Shown here: in pieces, positions 11,567 through 34,528 of the stretch | How positions within the stretch are numbered: position 1 is the stretch's first letter | How the letters are laid out: every line of letters starts with the position of its first letter | NCBI RefSeq assembly: GCF_014218355.1 | Contig: NZ_AP023368.1 | Coordinates: forward strand, 1,678,001 to 1,742,000 | From: Anaerocolumna chitinilytica | Lineage (GTDB): Bacteria > Bacillota > Clostridia > Lachnospirales > Lachnospiraceae | Length of the DNA: 64,000 nt | Reading direction: 5' to 3' | Notes under the pieces: generated by a model | Database searches by the model: none | Seen by the model: only the letters and a program-made list of their open reading frames with translations | What the model was told of the DNA's origin: nothing | Program-made: the position numbers and the translations under genes

Positions 11567-14500
11567 ATGAGTAAACTAGAAAATTTAAGACAGCTATATT
11601 ACCAGACAGTACAAGAAATGCTTGAAGATACAGATAAGTGGAAAGCTTTTCTTCAATATGCTGGAAATATGTACAAATACGACTTTGCAACTCTTGTTAC
11701 AGCCTATGCTCAGAATCCACAATTAACCCAGCTTGCTTCCTATGATGACTGGAAGGCAATCGGAAAACAAGTCAGAATGAATGAAAAAAGTATTCCGGTA
11801 ATGATTAAGAATAATAATGGGGTAGCACATTTTTTTGATGCATCTCAGTTGCAAGGTAACCCAAAGCTGAAGGACTGGGCCATTACAAAAGAAGAGTTTG
11901 AGAAATTCAATTACCAGTTTATGAAGAGAAACCAGCATTATCTTGATGATTATATCCAGTCAGCCGATGATATACGTCATCAAATGGTTGTAGAGCAGCT
12001 AAGACAGGCCTATACTAAAGCTAAACAGCTAGAAGTAAAAAGTGCCTTGTTATCAGATTTTATTATTAACAGTGTGGATTACATGGTACAATATAGATAT
12101 CAAAATCAGGATCCACGAATTGAGGTACATAATGATGGTGAAATTAAACCTGAGAATATTGGAACCGTTGGTTATTATACCGTAAAAACTGCTAGGGAGA
12201 TTCTTTTAGCCAGCAAAGATATTGTATTAGAAATGAGGAAGGAGAAGCAGAATGGTCAACAACAGGAAAATCGAAACCTTACAAAATGGGATGGAGATGG
12301 AATACGAGGAGAGAGAGGGTCTCTGGTTCGGAGTAGTGGAAGAGGAGAAGAACAATCAAGCGAGTCTGAATCAGCTAACCAAGTATGGCAATCTGGCAAT
12401 GAAGTATTGGGAGGAAGAAAAGCCAGTAGAATTACAACAACTTCTAGTAGACGGAATAATGGTAGAAACCATGTTAAAGATACAGGAAAGGGCCGAACAG
12501 ATGATGGAACAGCTCCAGGAGCAAATGATGAAGGAAAAACCCATAAAGAATCCGTCGGATACCATGGAAGCCTATCGTCACAGGCAGAGAATCCACGATC
12601 AAGCCGAGGAAATCGTCCTTCAGGAGATAGTGTACAATTAAAACTTAATCTGGAAGAACTTAATACAGATATTGAAGAAGAAACTAATTCGGTTTCTTCT
12701 TTTTTAGTTAGTAGAAGTTTTGGACAGGCTATGCTACCAGATGAAATACTTATCAATGTAATTAATTATGGAACCGGTTTTGAAGGCAGTCAGTCAGGTA
12801 TATTACAACTTTACAACAACGGATCTGTTTATACAGATAAAGTAGGATATCTAAAGAAAGCTTATGAGAAAACTGACTTTTATGATGAAAACGGGTCTAA
12901 AGGGTTTATTGGTATTCAGACTATAAATAATATGGGTATTAAAGTAACATGGTATGAAAATTCAAGGTTTAGTAATGAAATTATACATTGGAGCAAATTA
13001 GAAAGCATCTTAGAAAAGATGATTCTTGCTGATAAATACATAGTACCTATTCTTGCTGATAAGACCAGTAATAATGAAGTCGACAATTTAGAGAACGAAA
13101 ATAAACAGCTTAAAACACTACAGCCAATTTATAACACCGATCTAATTAATTATAAGTATCATGAAGATACAAGTGATGGTGGGCCTAAAAAGAAATTCCT
13201 TAATAACGTAGCGGCTATAATGCTCTTAAAAGAGATTGAGAATGAACAGCGCCTTGCCACAATAGATGAACAGATTATATTAAATCGTTATGTTGGATGG
13301 GGTGGCCTTTCAGCAGCCTTTGATGAGAAAAATACTACATGGACAAATGAGTATTTTGCACTAAAGGAACTGCTGACAGATCTGGAATATAAGAGTGCAA
13401 GAGCTTCTACAACAACAGCCTTTTACACTCCACCAGAGATTATTAAAGGCATATATCAAGCATTAGATCAATTAGGGTTTAAGGGAGGTAACATATTAGA
13501 GCCGGCTCTTGGCACCGGAAGGTTCTTTTCCCATATCTCTGATGAGCTAGAAGTTAAGTCTAGGTTATACGGAGTTGAATTAGATAGCCTTACTGGAAGG
13601 ATTGCAAAACAATTATATCAGAAAGCAAATATCCAAATTTGTGGGTATGAACAATCAAAGCTTCCTGGTAACTTTTTTGATTTGGTAATAAGTAATGTAC
13701 CATTTGGTGACTTTAAGGTCTTTGACAAGAACTATAGCAAATACAACTTTCATATCCATGATTATTATTTTGCAAAATCATTGGACAATGTGAGAGTTGG
13801 TGGATTGATTGTTTTGATATCGAGTAAAGGTACACTCGATAAAGCAAATCCATCCTTTCGTAGATATCTGGCAGAACGAGCTGATCTGATTGGCGCTATC
13901 AGGCTACCAAACAACATCTTTAAAGAAGCAAATACGGATGTAACCAGTGATATACTTTTCCTGCAGAAAAGAGAAAGACATCAGGTCATGGAACCGTCTT
14001 GGGTATTTACAGGACTTACGAATGATAAAGTACCAGTTAACCTGTATTATTTGGAGCATCCGGAAATGATGTTAGGCAAAATGGTTTTTGACAATAGGAT
14101 GTTTGGAGAAGATAGTAATTACACAACACTTATTCATGAGAATACTGAACATTTACAGGAAGACTTCATGGCAGCTATTCACAGTATTAAGGGTAAAATA
14201 AAAAATCTGAACGATGTAATTATGGAAAAAGAAGAAGTATCAGCAGACTTAATACCAGCTGATCCGAAGGTTAAAAACTACTGTTATACTATTTTTGATA
14301 ACAGGATTTATTACCGTGAAAGTTCGGTTATGAAAGAAATATCTCTATCTGATGTAAAAAGAGAGCAGATGATGGGACTTATAAATCTAAGGATAGTAGC
14401 CAGAGAAATTATAGAAGCTCAGCTTCAGAACTGTTCTGATGAGGAGCTTTCTAATCTGCAAAAACAACTTGATAGTCAATATAATACCTTTGTAAAAAAA

Positions 14501-17500
14501 TATGGGGTATTAGGCCATAAAAATAATACGCTCTTTAAGTTGGATGCTGACTATCCATTACTACTTTCTCTTGAATATGTGAATAAGCAGAATAAAGTTG
14601 AAAAAGCTGATATCTTTAATAAAAGGACAATCAAGCCTTACAAATCAATAGAGTTTGTAGAGACAGCCAGAGAAGGTTTGATGGTATCACTTACGGAAAA
14701 AGGAAAAGTAGATATACCATATATTGCAGGATTAGCAGGTATTACAGAAGATCAGGTTATAATTGATCTAACTGGACAAATTTTTCTTAATCCAGAGAAG
14801 CAAGATAAGGAAAATCCATATGCTGGTTATGAAACGGCAGATGAATACTTATCAGGAAATGTTCGGGCAAAACTTAAACTGGCTGAACTATTTGCTAAAA
14901 ATGATAAGGTATTTGAAATTAATGTAGAAGCTTTGAATAATGTGCAGCCAGAAGACCTAAAGGCAGGTGAAATTGCTGTCCGGTTGGGGACAACCTGGAT
15001 TGAAGAAGAAGATCTTAATCTGTTCATGTATCAACTTCTGGAAACACCGGATAATTATCGGTTAAAGGGCGGAAAGAATGGACAAAGGGTAACTGCAATT
15101 CATTACAATAGTTTCACTTATGCGTATTCTGTGACAAATAAAGTTTATGATGTTACCAGCCGTATTAGAGCATCGGAAACCTATGGCACCAGTCGTATGA
15201 ATGCTTATATGATTATAGAAGATAGCCTAAATTTAAAGACAGTTGTAGTTAAGGACCGGTTGGTAAATGAAGATGGTAATTTCTATTATGTTGTCAATAA
15301 AGCTGAAACAATTTTAGCAAGAGAGAAACAAGGCATCATAAAAGATAAATTTCAAGAGTGGTTTTGGTCTGATATAAACAGACGTGAAAAGTATGTTAGA
15401 AAATACAATGATTTATTTAATAATATCAGACTTCGAGAGTATGATGGATCACATCTGCAATTCCCAGGTATGAACCCGGCAATTATATTGGAACCCTATC
15501 AGAAAAATGCCGTTGCTAGGGTTTTATATGGTGGGAATGCCTTATTAGCTCATTGTGTTGGAGCCGGCAAAACCTTTGAAATGATAGCAAGTGCCATGGA
15601 ACTTAAGAGGGTAGGTCTTGCCAGTAAGTGTATGTTTTGTGTGCCTAAACACCTGACGATGCAAATTGGAAATGATTTTATAAAGCTTTATCCGGCAGCT
15701 AATATATTAGTAGCTTCAGCGGATGATTTTGAGCCGTTGAATCGTAAAACATTCATCAATAAAATAGCTACAGGTGATTATGATGCTGTAATACTTGGGT
15801 ATACACAATTTGAAAAAATCCCAATCTCACCAGAACGGGAACAGGCTATGCTGGAGGGACAGATAAAACAAGCTCAGGCTGCTATAGAAAGAATTCATGA
15901 AGAAAATGGAGAGAATTGGTCCATCAAGCAGATGGAAAAATTTAAGAAGAGCCTAGAAACTGAACTATTGTCCTTACGAAACAGTGAACGTGACAATACA
16001 ATATTTTTTGAGGATTTGGGTATTGATGCTCTATTTGTGGATGAAGCACATTATTATAAAAATTGTCCAGTTTTCTCTAAAATGCGTAATGTGGCAGGAA
16101 TATCTACCAGTAAGGCTAAGAAGTCAACGGATATGTTAATGAAGTGTCATTACATTAAAGAAATTAATAATGGAAGAGGGGTAGTTTTTGCAACAGCAAC
16201 CCCGATATCAAATTCTATGACTGAATTGTATGTCATACAACGTTACTTACAAAATGAAAGATTAATAGAAAAAGGAATTGATAATTTTGATGCTTGGGCC
16301 GCAAATTTTGGCGAGGTAATATCTTCTTTGGAATTAGCACCAGAGGGTACAGGTTACCGCTTTAAAAACAGATTTGCTAAATTTACAAATGTGCCGGAGC
16401 TATTGACAATGTTCCGAGAGATAGCAGATATTCAGCTACCTGAAATGCTCAATTTACCAGTACCAAAACTGAGGGATGGTAAATACAAAGTTATAGTTTC
16501 TGAACCATCTGAATATATCCGGAAAGCGATGACAGGCTTTGCAGAAAGAGCAGAAGATATCAGGAACGGTGCAGTAAAGCCGTATGTTGATAATATGCTA
16601 AAGGTAACGAATGAAGCGAGGCTGCTTGGAACAGATCCCAGATTGCTTGACCCAAATGCACCAAATGATCCTGATAGCAAGGTAAACCAATGTACGGCAA
16701 TTGTATATGAAGAATATCTTAAAAGTTCGAAGATAAAAGGTACTCAGATTATTTTTTGTGATGTAGGAACACCTAATAAGAACAAGAGATGGTCTATCTA
16801 TACTTATATTAAAGAAGAACTTATTCGTCTAGGCATACCAGAACAAGAGATATGTTTTATACATGATGCAAAAACAGATAAACAAAGGGAAAAGCTTTTT
16901 GAATATTTACGAAATGGTAAAGAAAGAGTTATCGTTGCCAGTACACCAAAGATGGGAACAGGGGTAAACGTACAGGATAGGATAGTAGCGTCACATGACC
17001 TTGATTGCCCTTGGAGGCCAAGCGACCTGGAGCAACGTTCCGGGCGCTCTCTACGCCAGGGAAATATGAATGATGAAGTAGCAATGTATCGTTACGTGAC
17101 AAAAGACACATTTGATTCGTATAACTGGCAATTGGTGGAACAGAAACAGAAATTTATTTCACAGCTTATGTCCAATAAGATGGTTGATCGTACTTGTGAA
17201 GATATCGATGAAACGGTTTTGTCTTACGCAGAGGTAAAAGCCTTGGCAACCGGTAACCCTTATATTAAAGAAAAGATGGACATAGATACAGAGGTTGCTA
17301 GACTTAAGATGTTAAAGGCGGGATTTTTGAATGAAAAATACAAATACGAGGAAGGATATCACAGGATATACCCTGAACAGATTGCGGATTATAAGGCAAA
17401 AATACAAGCCACAGAAAAAGATATTAAGCTCAGAGATTCTTATCCAATAGGAGAAGATAGCTTTAAAATAAATCTTTTAAATGCTGTATTTACTGAAAGA

Positions 17501-17992
17501 GCCAGAGCAGGTGAAACTATAATTGCTATTATGGGCATGAATGAAATACCAAAAGAAATTGGTACTTATCGTGGTTTTCGCTTGCTTTCAATATCAACTG
17601 AAAATACGCAGAATAGAAGTAATATCCTCGTTGAAGGCAACCGTACATATACGCAAGATTTAGGCACCAGTGGTGTTGGTAATATATATCGCCTTGATAA
17701 TCTTTTAAATGGACTAGAAGATAAACTTGAAATCTTTAAAATGAATTTAAGTATTGCCCAAGATAATCTGTTAGAAGCTCAGAAAAATTGTGACAAAACT
17801 TTTCCTTATGAGGATGAGCTGACGCAAAAAATCAAGCGCCAGACAGAACTAAACCAGTTGCTTGAACTGGATAAGAATGATGAGGTATTGGCAGATGATG
17901 ATATAGATATGGAAAGAGAGAATAGTAGCTTGACTATCAAGGAAATTATGAGTACCTACATAATTGAGGATGAAATGGATATGGAGCGATAG
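11567..17992 (+). CDS. Giant ArdC-like / N6-methylase-like / SNF2 helicase protein
   Basis: 2141 residues. An N-terminal ArdC/LtrC-like region (1-120, KWKAFLQYAGNMYKYDFATL) is followed by a Ser/Gly/Arg linker (about 225-345). Then a methylase-like domain with motif I EPALGTGRF (about 645) and NVPFG (about 709) in place of the usual NPP[YF], so methylation is doubtful. Then an SNF2/superfamily II helicase with GAGKT (about 1330), DEAH (about 1491), ATATPISNS and SGRSLRQG (about 1824). Large proteins of this layout are typical of clostridial integrative and conjugative elements, and probably process or protect transferred DNA. ATG 11567 follows AGAGAGGTG. A second gene is encoded in another frame across the linker. 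Confidence 0.85.
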   Translation: MSKLENLRQLYYQTVQEMLEDTDKWKAFLQYAGNMYKYDFATLVTAYAQNPQLTQLASYDDWKAIGKQVRMNEKSIPVMIKNNNGVAHFFDASQLQGNPKLKDWAITKEEFEKFNYQFMKRNQHYLDDYIQSADDIRHQMVVEQLRQAYTKAKQLEVKSALLSDFIINSVDYMVQYRYQNQDPRIEVHNDGEIKPENIGTVGYYTVKTAREILLASKDIVLEMRKEKQNGQQQENRNLTKWDGDGIRGERGSLVRSSGRGEEQSSESESANQVWQSGNEVLGGRKASRITTTSSRRNNGRNHVKDTGKGRTDDGTAPGANDEGKTHKESVGYHGSLSSQAENPRSSRGNRPSGDSVQLKLNLEELNTDIEEETNSVSSFLVSRSFGQAMLPDEILINVINYGTGFEGSQSGILQLYNNGSVYTDKVGYLKKAYEKTDFYDENGSKGFIGIQTINNMGIKVTWYENSRFSNEIIHWSKLESILEKMILADKYIVPILADKTSNNEVDNLENENKQLKTLQPIYNTDLINYKYHEDTSDGGPKKKFLNNVAAIMLLKEIENEQRLATIDEQIILNRYVGWGGLSAAFDEKNTTWTNEYFALKELLTDLEYKSARASTTTAFYTPPEIIKGIYQALDQLGFKGGNILEPALGTGRFFSHISDELEVKSRLYGVELDSLTGRIAKQLYQKANIQICGYEQSKLPGNFFDLVISNVPFGDFKVFDKNYSKYNFHIHDYYFAKSLDNVRVGGLIVLISSKGTLDKANPSFRRYLAERADLIGAIRLPNNIFKEANTDVTSDILFLQKRERHQVMEPSWVFTGLTNDKVPVNLYYLEHPEMMLGKMVFDNRMFGEDSNYTTLIHENTEHLQEDFMAAIHSIKGKIKNLNDVIMEKEEVSADLIPADPKVKNYCYTIFDNRIYYRESSVMKEISLSDVKREQMMGLINLRIVAREIIEAQLQNCSDEELSNLQKQLDSQYNTFVKKYGVLGHKNNTLFKLDADYPLLLSLEYVNKQNKVEKADIFNKRTIKPYKSIEFVETAREGLMVSLTEKGKVDIPYIAGLAGITEDQVIIDLTGQIFLNPEKQDKENPYAGYETADEYLSGNVRAKLKLAELFAKNDKVFEINVEALNNVQPEDLKAGEIAVRLGTTWIEEEDLNLFMYQLLETPDNYRLKGGKNGQRVTAIHYNSFTYAYSVTNKVYDVTSRIRASETYGTSRMNAYMIIEDSLNLKTVVVKDRLVNEDGNFYYVVNKAETILAREKQGIIKDKFQEWFWSDINRREKYVRKYNDLFNNIRLREYDGSHLQFPGMNPAIILEPYQKNAVARVLYGGNALLAHCVGAGKTFEMIASAMELKRVGLASKCMFCVPKHLTMQIGNDFIKLYPAANILVASADDFEPLNRKTFINKIATGDYDAVILGYTQFEKIPISPEREQAMLEGQIKQAQAAIERIHEENGENWSIKQMEKFKKSLETELLSLRNSERDNTIFFEDLGIDALFVDEAHYYKNCPVFSKMRNVAGISTSKAKKSTDMLMKCHYIKEINNGRGVVFATATPISNSMTELYVIQRYLQNERLIEKGIDNFDAWAANFGEVISSLELAPEGTGYRFKNRFAKFTNVPELLTMFREIADIQLPEMLNLPVPKLRDGKYKVIVSEPSEYIRKAMTGFAERAEDIRNGAVKPYVDNMLKVTNEARLLGTDPRLLDPNAPNDPDSKVNQCTAIVYEEYLKSSKIKGTQIIFCDVGTPNKNKRWSIYTYIKEELIRLGIPEQEICFIHDAKTDKQREKLFEYLRNGKERVIVASTPKMGTGVNVQDRIVASHDLDCPWRPSDLEQRSGRSLRQGNMNDEVAMYRYVTKDTFDSYNWQLVEQKQKFISQLMSNKMVDRTCEDIDETVLSYAEVKALATGNPYIKEKMDIDTEVARLKMLKAGFLNEKYKYEEGYHRIYPEQIADYKAKIQATEKDIKLRDSYPIGEDSFKINLLNAVFTERARAGETIIAIMGMNEIPKEIGTYRGFRLLSISTENTQNRSNILVEGNRTYTQDLGTSGVGNIYRLDNLLNGLEDKLEIFKMNLSIAQDNLLEAQKNCDKTFPYEDELTQKIKRQTELNQLLELDKNDEVLADDDIDMERENSSLTIKEIMSTYIIEDEMDMER
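12252..12641 (+). CDS. TnpV-like protein nested in another frame of the helicase gene
   Basis: 129 residues read in the +1 frame relative to the surrounding gene. It has its own excellent ribosome site (AGGAAGGAG at 12236-12244, seven bases before ATG). The protein resembles TnpV: an EYEEREGLWF start, QLTKYGNLAMKYWEEEKP, LLVDGIMVETM, then QMMKEKPIKNPSDTMEAYRH and a C-terminus DQAEEIVLQEIVYN, the segment best conserved in TnpV proteins. Meanwhile the host frame across the same bases is a low-complexity linker. So the linker of the large protein appears to be a by-product of overprinting a TnpV gene, or the reverse. TnpV has no known function; it was named from a clostridial transposon. Confidence 0.75.
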   Translation: MVNNRKIETLQNGMEMEYEEREGLWFGVVEEEKNNQASLNQLTKYGNLAMKYWEEEKPVELQQLLVDGIMVETMLKIQERAEQMMEQLQEQMMKEKPIKNPSDTMEAYRHRQRIHDQAEEIVLQEIVYN

Positions 17993-28993: not shown

Positions 28994-31900
28994 ATGAAGA
29001 ATAAAAATATAAAACAATTAATGGTAATTATCTTACTAGTTGCCATAATTTTTCAGCCCATGCAGATGACAGTTAATGCAGCAACAGGTGCAGTCGTTAC
29101 AGGTGCAAGTGGAACACAATATACCTTAAATCATCAGTATGTTAAGCAGTTAAATATCAATACTGGTAATATAACCATTTCTGATACGGGGTATACTCAG
29201 ACAAATGGTGCTACAGAGAGCTGGGATGCATCAAGTGATGCATATGTTATTAAAGGACAAGGAAGTAGTGCAAATACAATAACAATAACTAATGTAAATT
29301 ATGTACCAACAATTTATTTACTAGAGACCGAGTGGTCAGGTTATATTAATATACAATCAAGTATCGGGTGCAAGCTGGTAATAGTAGGTAATGTTAAAGC
29401 GAAAAATGCATCTTCTTGTGGGTTAGTTTACGTCTCAAATACTTCTACGTCTAATACAACAAAATTAGAAGTAGTTGGTTTGGATAAGGCAACCTCTTTT
29501 TTAACAGCTGATTACGTCATGGGTTATAGCAGTAATCCACTGAAATATATCGGAAGCGTGTCACTAAATAATTTAAATATTAACTGTATGTCTTTGGAGT
29601 CGGGAGTACAAACATTAGGCACTTTTGATATGAACAATATTAAACTCACTGAGAGTAAGACTTTGGTTAGCAATGAATCAATAAGATTGTTTAGTAATAA
29701 TAACTTGACAATAAATAATGTTATTGCAAATCATCTTGTAGTAATAAGGGCAAACAGTAGTTCCACTACAACAATTAATACATTTATTAGCAATTCAGAA
29801 ATTGATAGTTGCTATATACAAAATTCACAAACTTCCAGTATAACAGTAGAAAATTCATATTTTAACTATTTTGGGGGAATTAATCAAAATAAGGCTACTT
29901 TTAAGAATGTAGTAATAATCAATTTTTGGTCAAACTTTAGTGCAAGCTTATTTAATTTAATCGACAGTACATTGGCAAATACCACAATAGCGACTTCGAA
30001 TTTTTTAATTGGAACTTATAAAATAAACCACAGCAGTTTCAATGATGCGGGCGAAGGTTGGGTACTAGATTCAACACCAACAGATGACAATGCAAATGAT
30101 GTCTTTTTAAAGAAAGTAAGATTTAGGGATAACCCGAATACCTATTTTCTTGTAACCTTTCCAGATGGGCATATTTCTAAATTGCTATCTGATACAAATG
30201 GATATTTATATCCTTTTGTTCCGAAAAATAGCACTAATCTATTGTTTCAGGCCACAGACGAAACGGGGACAGCTAATTTTGGAGGTTACAAGCTCGATTA
30301 TGCAGCCATAACTACTAACGATACCACTTCAAATGAGCCTTCCATTCTTATACAGCCAACAACAATTACTTTCAGTCCATATGCTAACACACAAATAAGC
30401 TATTCTTTTGATAAGAGCACTTGGACACCAGTGACCACAGATTCGAACTGTCAGTTCAAGGTGGTTTTTCCAGATGGAATTGGTACGATATATCTGAAGT
30501 ATAATGGTAAATTGTATTCAGTAACGAAAGATGAATCTGGAAATGCAGGTAGTCTAATAGAGCTAAAACCTAAAATTGTATCCCAATCTGCTGGAAATGT
30601 ATCGCTGATAAAGGGAAGCCAGGGAACCATATTTGTTAATGCAAAGCCTGTTAATGCAAATGATACATTGCAGATGCAATGGTATAAAGATGGTAGTCCT
30701 TTAACGGGGGAAACTAATAATGTACTAACCTTTTCAAATCCGAATGATGCAGACATTGGAACCTATACATGTAATGTATCGGAAGATGGATTAGGAACTA
30801 CAACCTCTTCACCAATAGCAGTATCCGTTGTAGATAGTACGAATGCAATGTCTTTGAACATCCTAGCTCAGTCAGGAAATAAGACTGTTACAGAAGATTC
30901 AACAACGGAATTCTATGTAGTACCGAACATAACCGAGGGAGTTAGTTATCAATGGCAAAAAGATGGTGTAAATATTAATGGAGCTACTTCATCAAAATAT
31001 AATATTAGTACCGTTAAGCAATCAGATGAGGCTACATATACTTGTATTTTGAAGAAAGATAGTGAAGCTATAACATCTAATCCGATTACATTGACAGTTG
31101 TACCAAATCCACTTTCGGGTAATGTTTCTGAACTTCAGGATACGGTTAATAACTTGACTACTCAAGTTAATACTTTGCAAACACAGATCAATACTGCAAA
31201 TGAAAGTTTATCTGATTTACAGGATATGATTGATACACTTACAGGCCAGATAAATAATTTGAACAATCAGATAACAGCTCTGAATGGTCAAATAAATGAC
31301 TTAAGTGGCAATGTATCGAACCTTCAAGACCAAGTCAATGCCTTAATCATTCAAAAAGGTAAACTGCAGGGAGACCTGGATAATGCAAATACAGAAAAGG
31401 CAGCACTTCAAATCACTATTAATGATTTGAATACAGAAATTACAAATAAGGATAACCAGGTAACCTATTTACAGTCACTGTTGGATGCAAGTGAACATGA
31501 TAATGAGGAACTACAAAATCAGATTGATTCATTAAATGTACAGATAAGTGATATGACGATACAGATTAATAATCTGGTATCTCAAGTAACTACATTAACC
31601 TCAGAACGTGATTCTCTTCAGACTCAATTAGATACTGCTAATAATACTATTACTAATTTACAGCAGAAAATTATAGATTTAACGAATGAAAATCATGATT
31701 TGTCATCGAAACTTGATTCTGCACTTCTTCAGATTATTATTTTACAGGGACAGGTAAATGCACTGACCACACAGAATACGAATTTAGAAGGTCAAGTTAA
31801 TACTTTGCAGGCTCAAATAGTGGATTTACAACATCAGCTTGACAATACTGGATCGGACAATGTTGAATTGCTACAACAGATTAGTACCCTAAATACCCAG

Positions 31901-34528
31901 GTTAATAATTTGACTACACAAATAAACCAAAAGGATTCTCAGATTGTTTCGCTTAATGTACAGATTAGTAATCTGAATACTACAATTACAAATCTCCAGA
32001 CAGCGGTTAATAATGCATTGGATAGCCTGTCTGAATATGAAGGTACCGTTCTTCAGGATAAAATAAATAAAATCCTACAGGAAAACAGTGAACTCAAGAA
32101 TGCCCTTACAACTTTAGTACAGGACAAAAACTCTCTGCTCACACAAATCACTGATTTAAACAATTTAATCCTAAGCCTGCAGGGAGAGAATAGTTCCTTG
32201 AGTCAGCAGTTACAGGCCGCAGAAAATCAAATTACTGCCTTACAAAGCAGCTTGACTTTGGAGATAGCTAAAAGCAATGCGCTTCAGACACAAGTAGATA
32301 CTTTGAATGGACAGATAACAGATTTACAAACACAGCTCGGACAAGCTGACAGTGATAAAGATTCTCTTATTAATCAGATAACTGTTCTTCAGGGAGATCT
32401 GACGAGCCTAAACAATCATTTGACTATATCCAATACAACTATTGCTGACTTGAATACTCAAATATCAAGCATGAATAGTACCATTGTCAATCTTCAGAAT
32501 CAGATTAATAATGCTCTGTCTGAGTTATCAGAGTATGAAGGGAATAACCTGCTAGAGAAAATACAAGATATTAAAAATAAACAGACGGATATAACCGCTG
32601 ATCTAAATGAAGCCAATGCCCTGAATTCCAGCCTAAATTCGCAATTAGACACAGTGAACACGCAGCTGACATCGTTACAACATCAAATTGATGTATTGAC
32701 TGGGCAGTTGGGGGATAAAGATGCTCAGATAACAGAATTACTTGCTTTGATAGCACAAAAAGATACTGAAATTGCTGGAAAAAATACGCAAATTAACAAC
32801 CTCCAGAATCAAGTGCAGTCCTTGCAGGATACGATAGATTCACTTACAGGTGGAAATGATATTGTCGCTGAACTTACACAACAGGTTAACTCTCTGACAC
32901 AGCAGATTAACATACTGAATACGAAGGTAAATGATTTAACTGGGCAATTGAATGTAAAGGATGCCCTAATTAATGACCTTACAATTCAGCTGGCTGCAAA
33001 AAATGCTCAGATTATTGATCTGTTAAAACAGATTCAGGATTTACAGAATAGTAGCGGCAACCAGGATGAAGTCAACAAGCTAAAAGATGATATTAATAAG
33101 CTAAATGACGAATTGACTAATGCATACGACAATATAGAGAAGCTCAAACAACAGTTGGAAGATTTGAAAAACAATCCGGTAACGGTTGTTGTACCTGGTA
33201 GTTCTGGTGAAGGTGGAACGGATACAATAGCTGATCCTTCTGTTCCTAGTACAATAATTAAAGAAGTAAACCCTGATAATGTAAATGAGGTTGTCACTAA
33301 TCCTGTTATTAAGAATGGTGTTAATACAGATGTTGTGGCACAGAACGGCTGGGAGCTATCTTCTTCTCTTTCAAAAAATGCCATTTGGTCTGATTCCTTA
33401 TCACCCGTAACAGAAAGCTACACCGGTCTGTATACCTTTTTTGATAATGGACTTAATTCGGACACCGGAGTTTTGGGAGCGGCCATGACAGTTGGCTATA
33501 ATGGAGTACCAGTAGCCGGTCTGATTGATACAAAAGATGGTTATATGAAATACACCTTCTATGCTAGAAAAGTAGCAGATAAAAACAATATCTATGTATG
33601 CTCTGTTGATATTGAAAAAGAGAATTACACAACACCTGTTACAAGTATAACTTCATCCTTATTAAAAGAACCTCGAAGCTTTACTCCAGAGAATAGTTAC
33701 AATACATTGGCCGATAAAGCAATAACCTTAAAACTTAGTGCAGATTATGGAAAGTATGGAAGAGCAGCTATAAAATACCAGATAGTACCTGAAAGCATGG
33801 ACTTTGATCCGGACGGCACCTGGAAGGACGTGGAGGGGAATACAGTTACTATTCCGAAACAGCAAGAAAACTTCCGTGTTTATGTGAAATTCATTGATAA
33901 GAATGGTAATTATACCGTTGATAAAACAGTGGGATTTAAAGTATCCACTGAAAAAAGCAATGTTACTTCACCCGTATTTACTATGTATAAAACCGTTTAT
34001 CTGGGATATGACTACCAGGTACAACTAGCAAATGTTGATGGCAAGGTAAGTTACAGTTCATCTAATAAAAAAGTAGCTAGTGTCAATAAGTCCGGTGTTA
34101 TTACATCGGTGAACTATGGTAATGCTGTTATCTCATGCACAGTGAAAGGGAAAACGAATTATACATACAAAGTAATTGTTACAGTTGCAGATGGTAAAGG
34201 TAAACCAACACTGAATTTTATTGCACAAGAACTACAAACTTCCAGCGACAGTCCAGTACTTATGATGTATAAGCAGCTGAAAAAGGACTCAAGTACAAAG
34301 CTTGATATCAGTGGTTTAAGTAAAAATGCTCGTATTACTTATGTGAATACCGATTCAAATATAGCTTACATTTCGAAGTATGGTACAATAACAGGTCTTA
34401 AGAAAGGAAATACCGATATACTGGCCATTGTTGACCAAGAAGGTCGTAGCTACATTTATTATATCAAAGTCAGAGTAGATGATGGCACAGCGGATCCGGA
34501 GTACTGGACATATCTAACAGCTGCTTAG
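28994..34528 (+). CDS. Giant secreted coiled-coil surface protein with Ig-like and Big_2-like domains
   Basis: 1844 residues. Signal peptide (about 1-30, ending VNA-AT). Residues about 30-440 are Asn/Thr/Ser-rich and probably a beta-helix. Then two Ig-like domains (about 530-615 and 620-705; each with a QW-KDG core and YTC near the end). Then an almost unbroken coiled coil of about 690 residues (about 708-1395) made of LxxQIxxLxxQV heptads; it would be of the order of 100 nm long. Then a Gly/Ser linker and two Big_2-like domains (about 1650-1835). No LPxTG motif or C-terminal membrane helix, so the anchoring is unexplained. It sits inside the transfer genes and probably acts as an adhesin in mating-pair contact. 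Confidence 0.8.
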   Translation: MKNKNIKQLMVIILLVAIIFQPMQMTVNAATGAVVTGASGTQYTLNHQYVKQLNINTGNITISDTGYTQTNGATESWDASSDAYVIKGQGSSANTITITNVNYVPTIYLLETEWSGYINIQSSIGCKLVIVGNVKAKNASSCGLVYVSNTSTSNTTKLEVVGLDKATSFLTADYVMGYSSNPLKYIGSVSLNNLNINCMSLESGVQTLGTFDMNNIKLTESKTLVSNESIRLFSNNNLTINNVIANHLVVIRANSSSTTTINTFISNSEIDSCYIQNSQTSSITVENSYFNYFGGINQNKATFKNVVIINFWSNFSASLFNLIDSTLANTTIATSNFLIGTYKINHSSFNDAGEGWVLDSTPTDDNANDVFLKKVRFRDNPNTYFLVTFPDGHISKLLSDTNGYLYPFVPKNSTNLLFQATDETGTANFGGYKLDYAAITTNDTTSNEPSILIQPTTITFSPYANTQISYSFDKSTWTPVTTDSNCQFKVVFPDGIGTIYLKYNGKLYSVTKDESGNAGSLIELKPKIVSQSAGNVSLIKGSQGTIFVNAKPVNANDTLQMQWYKDGSPLTGETNNVLTFSNPNDADIGTYTCNVSEDGLGTTTSSPIAVSVVDSTNAMSLNILAQSGNKTVTEDSTTEFYVVPNITEGVSYQWQKDGVNINGATSSKYNISTVKQSDEATYTCILKKDSEAITSNPITLTVVPNPLSGNVSELQDTVNNLTTQVNTLQTQINTANESLSDLQDMIDTLTGQINNLNNQITALNGQINDLSGNVSNLQDQVNALIIQKGKLQGDLDNANTEKAALQITINDLNTEITNKDNQVTYLQSLLDASEHDNEELQNQIDSLNVQISDMTIQINNLVSQVTTLTSERDSLQTQLDTANNTITNLQQKIIDLTNENHDLSSKLDSALLQIIILQGQVNALTTQNTNLEGQVNTLQAQIVDLQHQLDNTGSDNVELLQQISTLNTQVNNLTTQINQKDSQIVSLNVQISNLNTTITNLQTAVNNALDSLSEYEGTVLQDKINKILQENSELKNALTTLVQDKNSLLTQITDLNNLILSLQGENSSLSQQLQAAENQITALQSSLTLEIAKSNALQTQVDTLNGQITDLQTQLGQADSDKDSLINQITVLQGDLTSLNNHLTISNTTIADLNTQISSMNSTIVNLQNQINNALSELSEYEGNNLLEKIQDIKNKQTDITADLNEANALNSSLNSQLDTVNTQLTSLQHQIDVLTGQLGDKDAQITELLALIAQKDTEIAGKNTQINNLQNQVQSLQDTIDSLTGGNDIVAELTQQVNSLTQQINILNTKVNDLTGQLNVKDALINDLTIQLAAKNAQIIDLLKQIQDLQNSSGNQDEVNKLKDDINKLNDELTNAYDNIEKLKQQLEDLKNNPVTVVVPGSSGEGGTDTIADPSVPSTIIKEVNPDNVNEVVTNPVIKNGVNTDVVAQNGWELSSSLSKNAIWSDSLSPVTESYTGLYTFFDNGLNSDTGVLGAAMTVGYNGVPVAGLIDTKDGYMKYTFYARKVADKNNIYVCSVDIEKENYTTPVTSITSSLLKEPRSFTPENSYNTLADKAITLKLSADYGKYGRAAIKYQIVPESMDFDPDGTWKDVEGNTVTIPKQQENFRVYVKFIDKNGNYTVDKTVGFKVSTEKSNVTSPVFTMYKTVYLGYDYQVQLANVDGKVSYSSSNKKVASVNKSGVITSVNYGNAVISCTVKGKTNYTYKVIVTVADGKGKPTLNFIAQELQTSSDSPVLMMYKQLKKDSSTKLDISGLSKNARITYVNTDSNIAYISKYGTITGLKKGNTDILAIVDQEGRSYIYYIKVRVDDGTADPEYWTYLTAA

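Follow-up and report, generated by a model that had tools for sequence, protein, structure and literature searches.

An Out-of-Frame tnpV Gene under Selection within the Linker of DarB-like Methylase–Helicase Genes

Introduction

DarB-like proteins, in which an adenine methylase is joined to an SNF2-type helicase, are described as methylase–helicase dyads of phages and conjugative elements (PMC5512222). Further accounts deal with DarB-like phages (PMC5633684, PMC9144972, PMC6630229), the second of which mentions the embedded Rz1 of phages, and with the DarB of phage P1 (PMC9024508); related papers are PMC5357655 and PMC12942858. TnpV (Pfam family PF14198) belongs to Tn4451-type transposons and integrative and conjugative elements (ICEs), has been postulated to be Xis-like, with a role in transposon excision that is only a postulate (PMC3158075), and is carried by integrative mobilizable elements (IMEs) inserted in snf2 (PMC9815147). 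Here, we analyze a stretch of 64,000 nucleotides of Anaerocolumna chitinilytica (contig NZ_AP023368.1, positions 1,678,001 to 1,742,000; hereafter, the window), in which a 129-codon tnpV lies inside the gene for a large DarB-like protein.

The locus can be compared with both systems. Its outer gene resembles the DarB-like dyads in probable composition, namely, an N-domain, an adenine-methylase-like domain, and an SNF2-type helicase, and differs from P1 DarB, which has no nested gene. The 129-residue frame is a full-length TnpV homologue scoring above the curated cut-off of the family; unlike described members, it is not a separate gene and resides within the methylase–helicase gene in another frame. 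A term search of the main text of PMC5512222 returned no TnpV (0 occurrences) and no ‘overlapping gene’, a term search of the available text of PMC5009743 gave no match, and no account of a nested tnpV was found in the literature searched. On comparative sequence grounds, we consider it probable that tnpV is a genuine out-of-frame protein gene in the DarB-like linker, which likely works with the methylase–helicase.

The Window Locus

The features of the locus, all on the forward strand, are listed below with the evidence for each.

11567..17992 (+): outer open reading frame (ORF), DarB-like, 2141 amino acids, comprising an N-domain, a linker, an adenine-methylase-like domain, and an SNF2-type helicase
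11567..12256 (+): outer N-terminal domain, weakly ArdC-N-like (Pfam ArdcN; mostly ordinary codon-position rates)
12236..12244 (+): tnpV ribosome-binding site, AGGAAGGAG, within outer codons (sequence; the class of site is enriched before nested starts)
12252..12641 (+): nested tnpV, 129 amino acids, +1 frame (Pfam PF14198; substitution analysis; AlphaFold2)
12674..12702 (+): terminator-like hairpin within the outer ORF, 12-bp stem and 5-nt loop (scan; class enrichment)
12700..12705 (+): T-run at the base of the hairpin (sequence; scan)

The nested frame consists of 129 codons plus a stop, is offset by +1, and is fully enclosed by the outer ORF, as the initial annotation had proposed for a TnpV-like gene in another frame of the helicase gene. 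The identity of the frame, for which a search with a hidden Markov model (HMM) had been suggested, was borne out by PF14198 (E = 3e-18, 66.2 bits against a cut-off of 27, profile positions 2–111 of 111). This is the sole TnpV match across the 5.6-Mb genome; an NCBIfam scan of the frame gave no relevant match. In the outer protein, Helicase_C (39.0 bits) and ResIII (26.8 bits) both exceed the Pfam cut-off, Methyltransf_11 (17.3 bits, cut-off 21.2) falls below it, as does ArdcN in the N-domain (E = 0.02, 15.5 bits, cut-off 22.6), and relatives are named N12 class adenine-specific DNA methylase or helicase-related protein. The AlphaFold2 model of the window TnpV, with a mean predicted local distance difference test score (pLDDT) of 89.4, has predicted N-terminal strands followed by five helices, the long ones spanning residues 44–56, 58–67, 70–95, and 104–127. 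An unnamed viral entry, Q8W6J4_2, is a weak fold match to TnpV.

Selection in the Two Reading Frames

Substitutions were analyzed in codon alignments built in the outer frame, using only pairs at 2–45% divergence, which are not independent of one another. Throughout the overlap, first codon positions are the fastest and third positions the slowest in 11/11 groups (seven ICE/genome and four phage), versus third positions being fastest in 22/22 flanking control stretches. For the window's clade, the rates at positions 1/2/3 are 0.52/0.29/0.12 in the overlap and 0.23/0.11/0.59 downstream. Expressed as ratios of nonsynonymous (N) and synonymous (S) classes, inner NN/NS ranges from 0.08 to 0.62 in ten groups, being undefined by saturation in the window's clade, and outer NN/SN ranges from 0.82 to 2.09 in the overlap (11 groups) versus 0.03–0.50 in the flanks, where defined. 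Linkers without a nested gene (six pairs) have ordinary position rates. A sliding-window scan, flagging first-position rates more than 1.3 times the third-position rate, raised the flag only in five sliding windows overlapping tnpV in the window's clade (outer codons 229–359) and, likewise, only in five overlapping tnpV in the Lachnospiraceae group L051 (codons 264–389); two sliding windows at codons 126–190 of the window gene gave about equal position rates.

The outer frame is open across 112/113 TnpV matches upstream of the methylase versus 28/96 others, many of these 28 coming from loci too short to reach the methylase. This count replaced the 0 outer stops in 120 nested units, a figure true by construction and left unused. 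Standalone TnpVs have 2–11 stops in the equivalent frame (30/30). When codons were redrawn with the TnpV protein fixed, the outer frame was open in 0/20,000 trials; with the outer protein fixed, the inner frame was open in 0.5%. From the position rates together with the openness of the outer frame, TnpV is therefore the protein under selection in the overlap, and the outer linker, resembling a tether held open, seems to be free of amino-acid constraint there and kept only to stay open. The initial annotation had proposed a test for two constrained frames; constraint is seen in the inner amino-acid sequence and not in the outer; its further suggestion, that the linker is a by-product of overprinting, agrees with a neutral outer and a selected inner frame.

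These data bear on two alternatives. The first holds that the frame is a chance ORF or a dead transposon tnpV insert, in a stretch permissive in several frames, as the open antisense frame shows. It is refuted by the codon-position reversal, found in every group and confined to tnpV along the gene; moreover, TnpV matches enclosed by a same-strand ORF share one relative frame in 182/182 cases, and we give this explanation practically no weight. The second holds that the outer frame is not read through, the N-domain and the methylase–helicase being separate products and the open linker incidental. The neutrality of the outer sequence would suit it, as would the hairpin after tnpV, the helicase of relative P0022, listed at only 1634 amino acids and beginning after the linker, and the annotated Kocuria helicase, which starts downstream of tnpV. 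Separate products sit poorly with the near-universal openness of the outer frame upstream of the methylase and with its closure in all the redrawn TnpV sequences, and we regard them as quite unlikely.

The antisense ORF in question (166 amino acids, 12256–12756, − strand) is likewise open across the overlap, and long antisense ORFs occur at many nested loci; this recurrence is perhaps due to codon structure.

Ribosome Sites

The initial annotation had noted a good ribosome site before tnpV, and this feature extends to the class. In the window, AGGAAGGAG is separated from the tnpV ATG by a 7-nt gap. Sites of at least 6 nt precede 60/100 ICE/genome nested ORFs versus 0.6% of 8444 background starts, and 18/35 phage-class ORFs versus 0.8% of 4455, the background starts being taken from the matching frame within these genes. 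With 2.5 candidate starts per unit on average, the chance expectation is about 2% per unit. The scan covered 139 units, in four of which the scanned stretch offered no in-frame ATG/GTG; for this count and that of the hairpins, the phage class comprises outer ORFs longer than 3300 amino acids or phage records and includes the long Clostridia-type genes L059 and L117. The outer codons that spell the site vary between copies (RS in 41, KE in 19, GG in 10), so no single outer motif accounts for the site.

Such sites also bear on whether TnpV might arise as an N-domain fusion through ribosomal frameshifting instead of by internal initiation. In Sinorhizobium phage PBC5 (L197, about 1635–1943), the TnpV-like stretch forms the C-terminal end of the upstream orf33, in frame with it, and is covered in the other frame by the methylase ORF, which would favor frameshifting. 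This is, however, a single record, reflecting either an error in the sequence or a gene that is split, and strong ribosome sites stand directly before the ATG in most copies; we judge frameshifting highly improbable.

As a side observation, promoter-consensus matches are somewhat commoner from −300 to +100 nt of the tnpV start than elsewhere in outer genes, and tnpV could have an internal promoter of its own.

Census of Nested Copies

Searching ~5.8 billion proteins with the 129-residue query gave five matches, including the window's own, among 14 candidates scored. The other four are TnpV relatives at 63–74% identity: two lie on contigs of 947 and 503 bases, and the remaining two, named TnpV, come from Anaerocolumna cellulosilytica and Anaeromicropila herbilytica, both of which also have helicases among the outer homologues. 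We then took helicase loci from genome contigs (80) and viral contigs (80) and tested outer ORFs with at least 150 amino acids before the methylase domain, using an iterated TnpV HMM at E < 1e-3; 11 outer ORFs with less upstream sequence were set aside. Nested TnpV was found in 50/68 loci from genomes, 61/74 from IMG/VR, and 14/16 annotated phage records, that is, 125/158; the IMG/VR set is not purely phage, some of its contigs being ICE-like. In this first census, the window locus and some phages were each counted twice. Once identical methylase stretches had been merged, nested TnpV was present in 118/150 distinct DarB-like outer ORFs from phages and Clostridia-type elements (the window locus, L001, counted), so the earlier expectation that the nested gene is widespread in this element family proved correct.

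The 125/125 raw nested matches lie in one relative frame and are all distinct from the outer ORF. Phage 8P (L195) gave no nested match, and in some missed phage loci (L135, L124, L172) the +1 frame appears TnpV-like by eye. Annotation rarely captures the gene: among 17 annotated records with a nested match, one (Kocuria) annotates a separate TnpV, and NCBI-derived names give TnpV at few such places (P0126, P0127, and Kocuria).

Three side observations concern individual loci. The nested-type TnpV relative P0124 appears to be misannotated, its name at source being phosphohistidine phosphatase SixA. L036 is an Alphaproteobacteria-binned contig with a Clostridia-type helicase and nested tnpV, possibly misbinned. 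The one Streptococcus snf2 locus covered (L196) has no nested gene, although snf2-inserting IMEs are reported to carry TnpV (PMC9815147).

Phages and Plasmids

Beyond the initial annotation, the nested gene occurs in tailed phages, and an actinomycetotal plasmid has an identical relation of frames. Phage outer genes are mostly 3,600–5,600 amino acids long where complete, with the nested ORF immediately upstream of the methylase domain. They are annotated as DarB-like antirestriction, DNA methylase, lytic transglycosylase, and similar; a separate nested gene is annotated in 0/14 annotated phage records with a match, and in Itty13 the annotated genes over the nested stretch are all on the opposite strand.

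The homology of the phage copies can be traced in several ways. Pfam TnpV matches nested phage-class ORFs on their own in L170 (46.9 bits), L166 (39.1), L121 (32.9), and L148 (31.8). An HMM built solely from standalone TnpVs matches nested copies with E down to 6.6e-47, and, for phage copies, gives E = 8e-9 in L170, 2.5e-5 in L180, and 7e-4 in L166. A profile–profile comparison of TnpV with the phage nested set reaches 98.9% probability over 86 columns. The predicted model of phage L138 (mean pLDDT 83.7; helices 3–17, 19–28, 31–58, and 69–105) and that of the window TnpV have long helices in matching order.

In plasmids, the clearest case is that of Kocuria rosea (Actinomycetota), where an annotated TnpV lies directly upstream of an annotated helicase; the frame of the latter, as a potential coding extension, stays open across tnpV with the identical +1 offset. 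On Virgibacillus and Ruminococcus albus plasmids, the genes that enclose a nested TnpV bear no annotation beyond SNF2-related, and the other seven plasmid loci had no TnpV match. On several Alphaproteobacterial plasmids, DarB-like methylase–helicases (L301, H85, H86, and H89) are annotated as lactate dehydrogenase, apparently a misannotation.

A Terminator-like Hairpin after tnpV

A further new observation, which includes the window, is that the tnpV stop is often followed by a terminator-like hairpin still within the helicase ORF. We searched for stems of at least 8 bp with at least 5 T in 8 within 110 nt downstream of the tnpV stop. A scan of the window showed one terminator-like site after the tnpV stop, beginning 32 nt past it, with stem-loop and T-run (T6) both present, just 3 G–C pairs, and a folding z of −3.0. 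Counting only units with 110 nt remaining inside the outer ORF (104 ICE/genome and 35 phage-class), a hairpin is found in 49/104 ICE/genome loci versus 4/794 random windows in the same genes and 4/1040 shuffles. Along the outer gene, as counted in 110 ICE-type units with a slightly different filter, hairpins peak only after tnpV (49/110 versus 0–5 per bin elsewhere). Opposite-strand hairpins number 4/119, and standalone TnpVs have the hairpin in 22/62 cases.

Stem sequences vary among clades. Across 13 related loci, two-sided changes occur at 5/19 stem pairs, a number reached by 6/500 shuffles, and sliding the stem partner lowers the paired cells from 96% to 38–58%. When the outer codons of the window were recoded synonymously, the hairpin was kept in 16/1000 trials, with a stem of at least 12 in one. 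Reading the hairpin as a terminator-like end for nested tnpV in about half of ICE copies is well supported by these comparisons.

Standalone TnpV and the Direction of Descent

A TnpV match is present in 140/391 genomes of the class. Among 125 sampled matches, chosen from score-ranked lists, and hence neither random nor deduplicated, with at least one place included twice, 51 are nested (48 in an ORF matching the helicase profile) and 74 are standalone. The TnpV tree has 189 rows, obtained after dropping matches below 55 bits or about 75 amino acids as well as identical rows; it is based on few columns, has long branches, and is midpoint-rooted. All 64/64 standalone rows fall in one clade of 126 rows (support 99/90), whose other members are 61 nested rows and a single phage-class row. 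Every deeper branch belongs to nested or phage copies, and 63/125 nested-or-phage rows lie outside the clade that holds the standalone forms. Judging from this topology, the nested form is likely ancestral to standalone TnpV. Several exits or returns are possible, since the standalone label requires six changes on the tree.

Proposed Mechanism

The preferred account, in which TnpV is a partner of the protein whose gene encloses it, can be outlined as follows. TnpV would be made by ribosomes that initiate at an internal site of the helicase message. Halting 5–70 nt short of the hairpin, these ribosomes would leave it unobstructed, so that it can terminate transcription; those in the helicase frame would run across it, so that transcription continues. 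The ratio of the two ribosome streams would then set the output of TnpV versus helicase. In the outer protein, the neutral but open linker may serve as a flexible tether, and TnpV, a small helical protein, would partner the methylase–helicase encoded beside it. The idea of partnership arises from position: in ICEs and phages alike, TnpV lies ahead of the methylase domain, although the N-terminal modules differ. A rival reading is that TnpV is a recombination accessory of the excisionase type, as proposed for Tn4451, and is merely housed in the helicase gene; we hold this to be unlikely, though the most serious of the alternatives.

Several results weigh against the partnership and attenuation account. 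Sequences inside each group are related, so the counts are not independent. Nested matches are absent from 32/150 distinct outer ORFs with the iterated HMM, including the Streptococcus snf2 gene and Ruminococcus-type genes, and P1 DarB has neither an upstream linker nor a nested ORF. No TnpV is found in 7/8 non-Firmicutes plasmid loci, several of which have little sequence before the methylase. The structural relatives of the TnpV model include none that points to a function. Among phage-class copies, L163 scores 22.6 bits with Pfam TnpV, below the cut-off, and L138 has no Pfam match. Phage inner ratios (0.27–0.62) overlap those of control stretches (0.36–1.01) and, for this reason, are not decisive alone; the phage case rests on the position reversal, the ribosome sites, and homology. 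The hairpin was kept in 6 to 37 of 500 recodings (up to 7%) at five other loci. Finally, only 1/35 phage-class units has a hairpin, L117, which shares it with the Clostridia genome locus L227; as that single case looks like a Clostridia-type element, the attenuation idea does not apply to phages.

A broader synthesis is correspondingly tentative, and we put it at somewhat less than an even chance: TnpV would have long been overprinted, fixed in a single frame, in antirestriction methylase–helicases of phages, ICEs, and plasmids, the transposon TnpVs would be escapees, and the Firmicute nested gene with its terminator would act as a translation-controlled attenuator within the enzyme's coding sequence.

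Elsewhere in the window, an 1844-residue protein (28994–34528, +) has a long, repetitive, coiled-coil-looking stretch; it is in the element and adjoins transfer genes.

Comparison with Known Systems

To our knowledge, bacterial nested genes are mostly single, lineage-bound cases. The nested tnpV keeps to a single frame in ICEs as in phages; its selection signature is clean, it has a ribosome site to itself, and a terminator-like hairpin often follows it. It suggests a partner for a large enzyme class believed to shield mobile DNA during entry, places the orphan TnpV family in a context, and may exemplify the escape of an overlapping gene from its overlap. In addition, a coding region appears to carry a terminator that must be read across.

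Two known systems help to place this arrangement. In comS of Bacillus subtilis, not known beyond a single lineage, a small out-of-frame gene lies within srfAB, a huge multidomain enzyme gene; tnpV shares this architecture and, unlike comS, spans distant lineages. In the embedded Rz/Rz1 spanin genes, a small gene is fully inside another in a different frame, as tnpV is. The differences are that, for tnpV, conservation lies in the inner gene, the linker of the host gene being neutral, and that the nested gene occurs in ICEs as well as phages, has free relatives, and is followed by a terminator-like hairpin in about half of its ICE copies.
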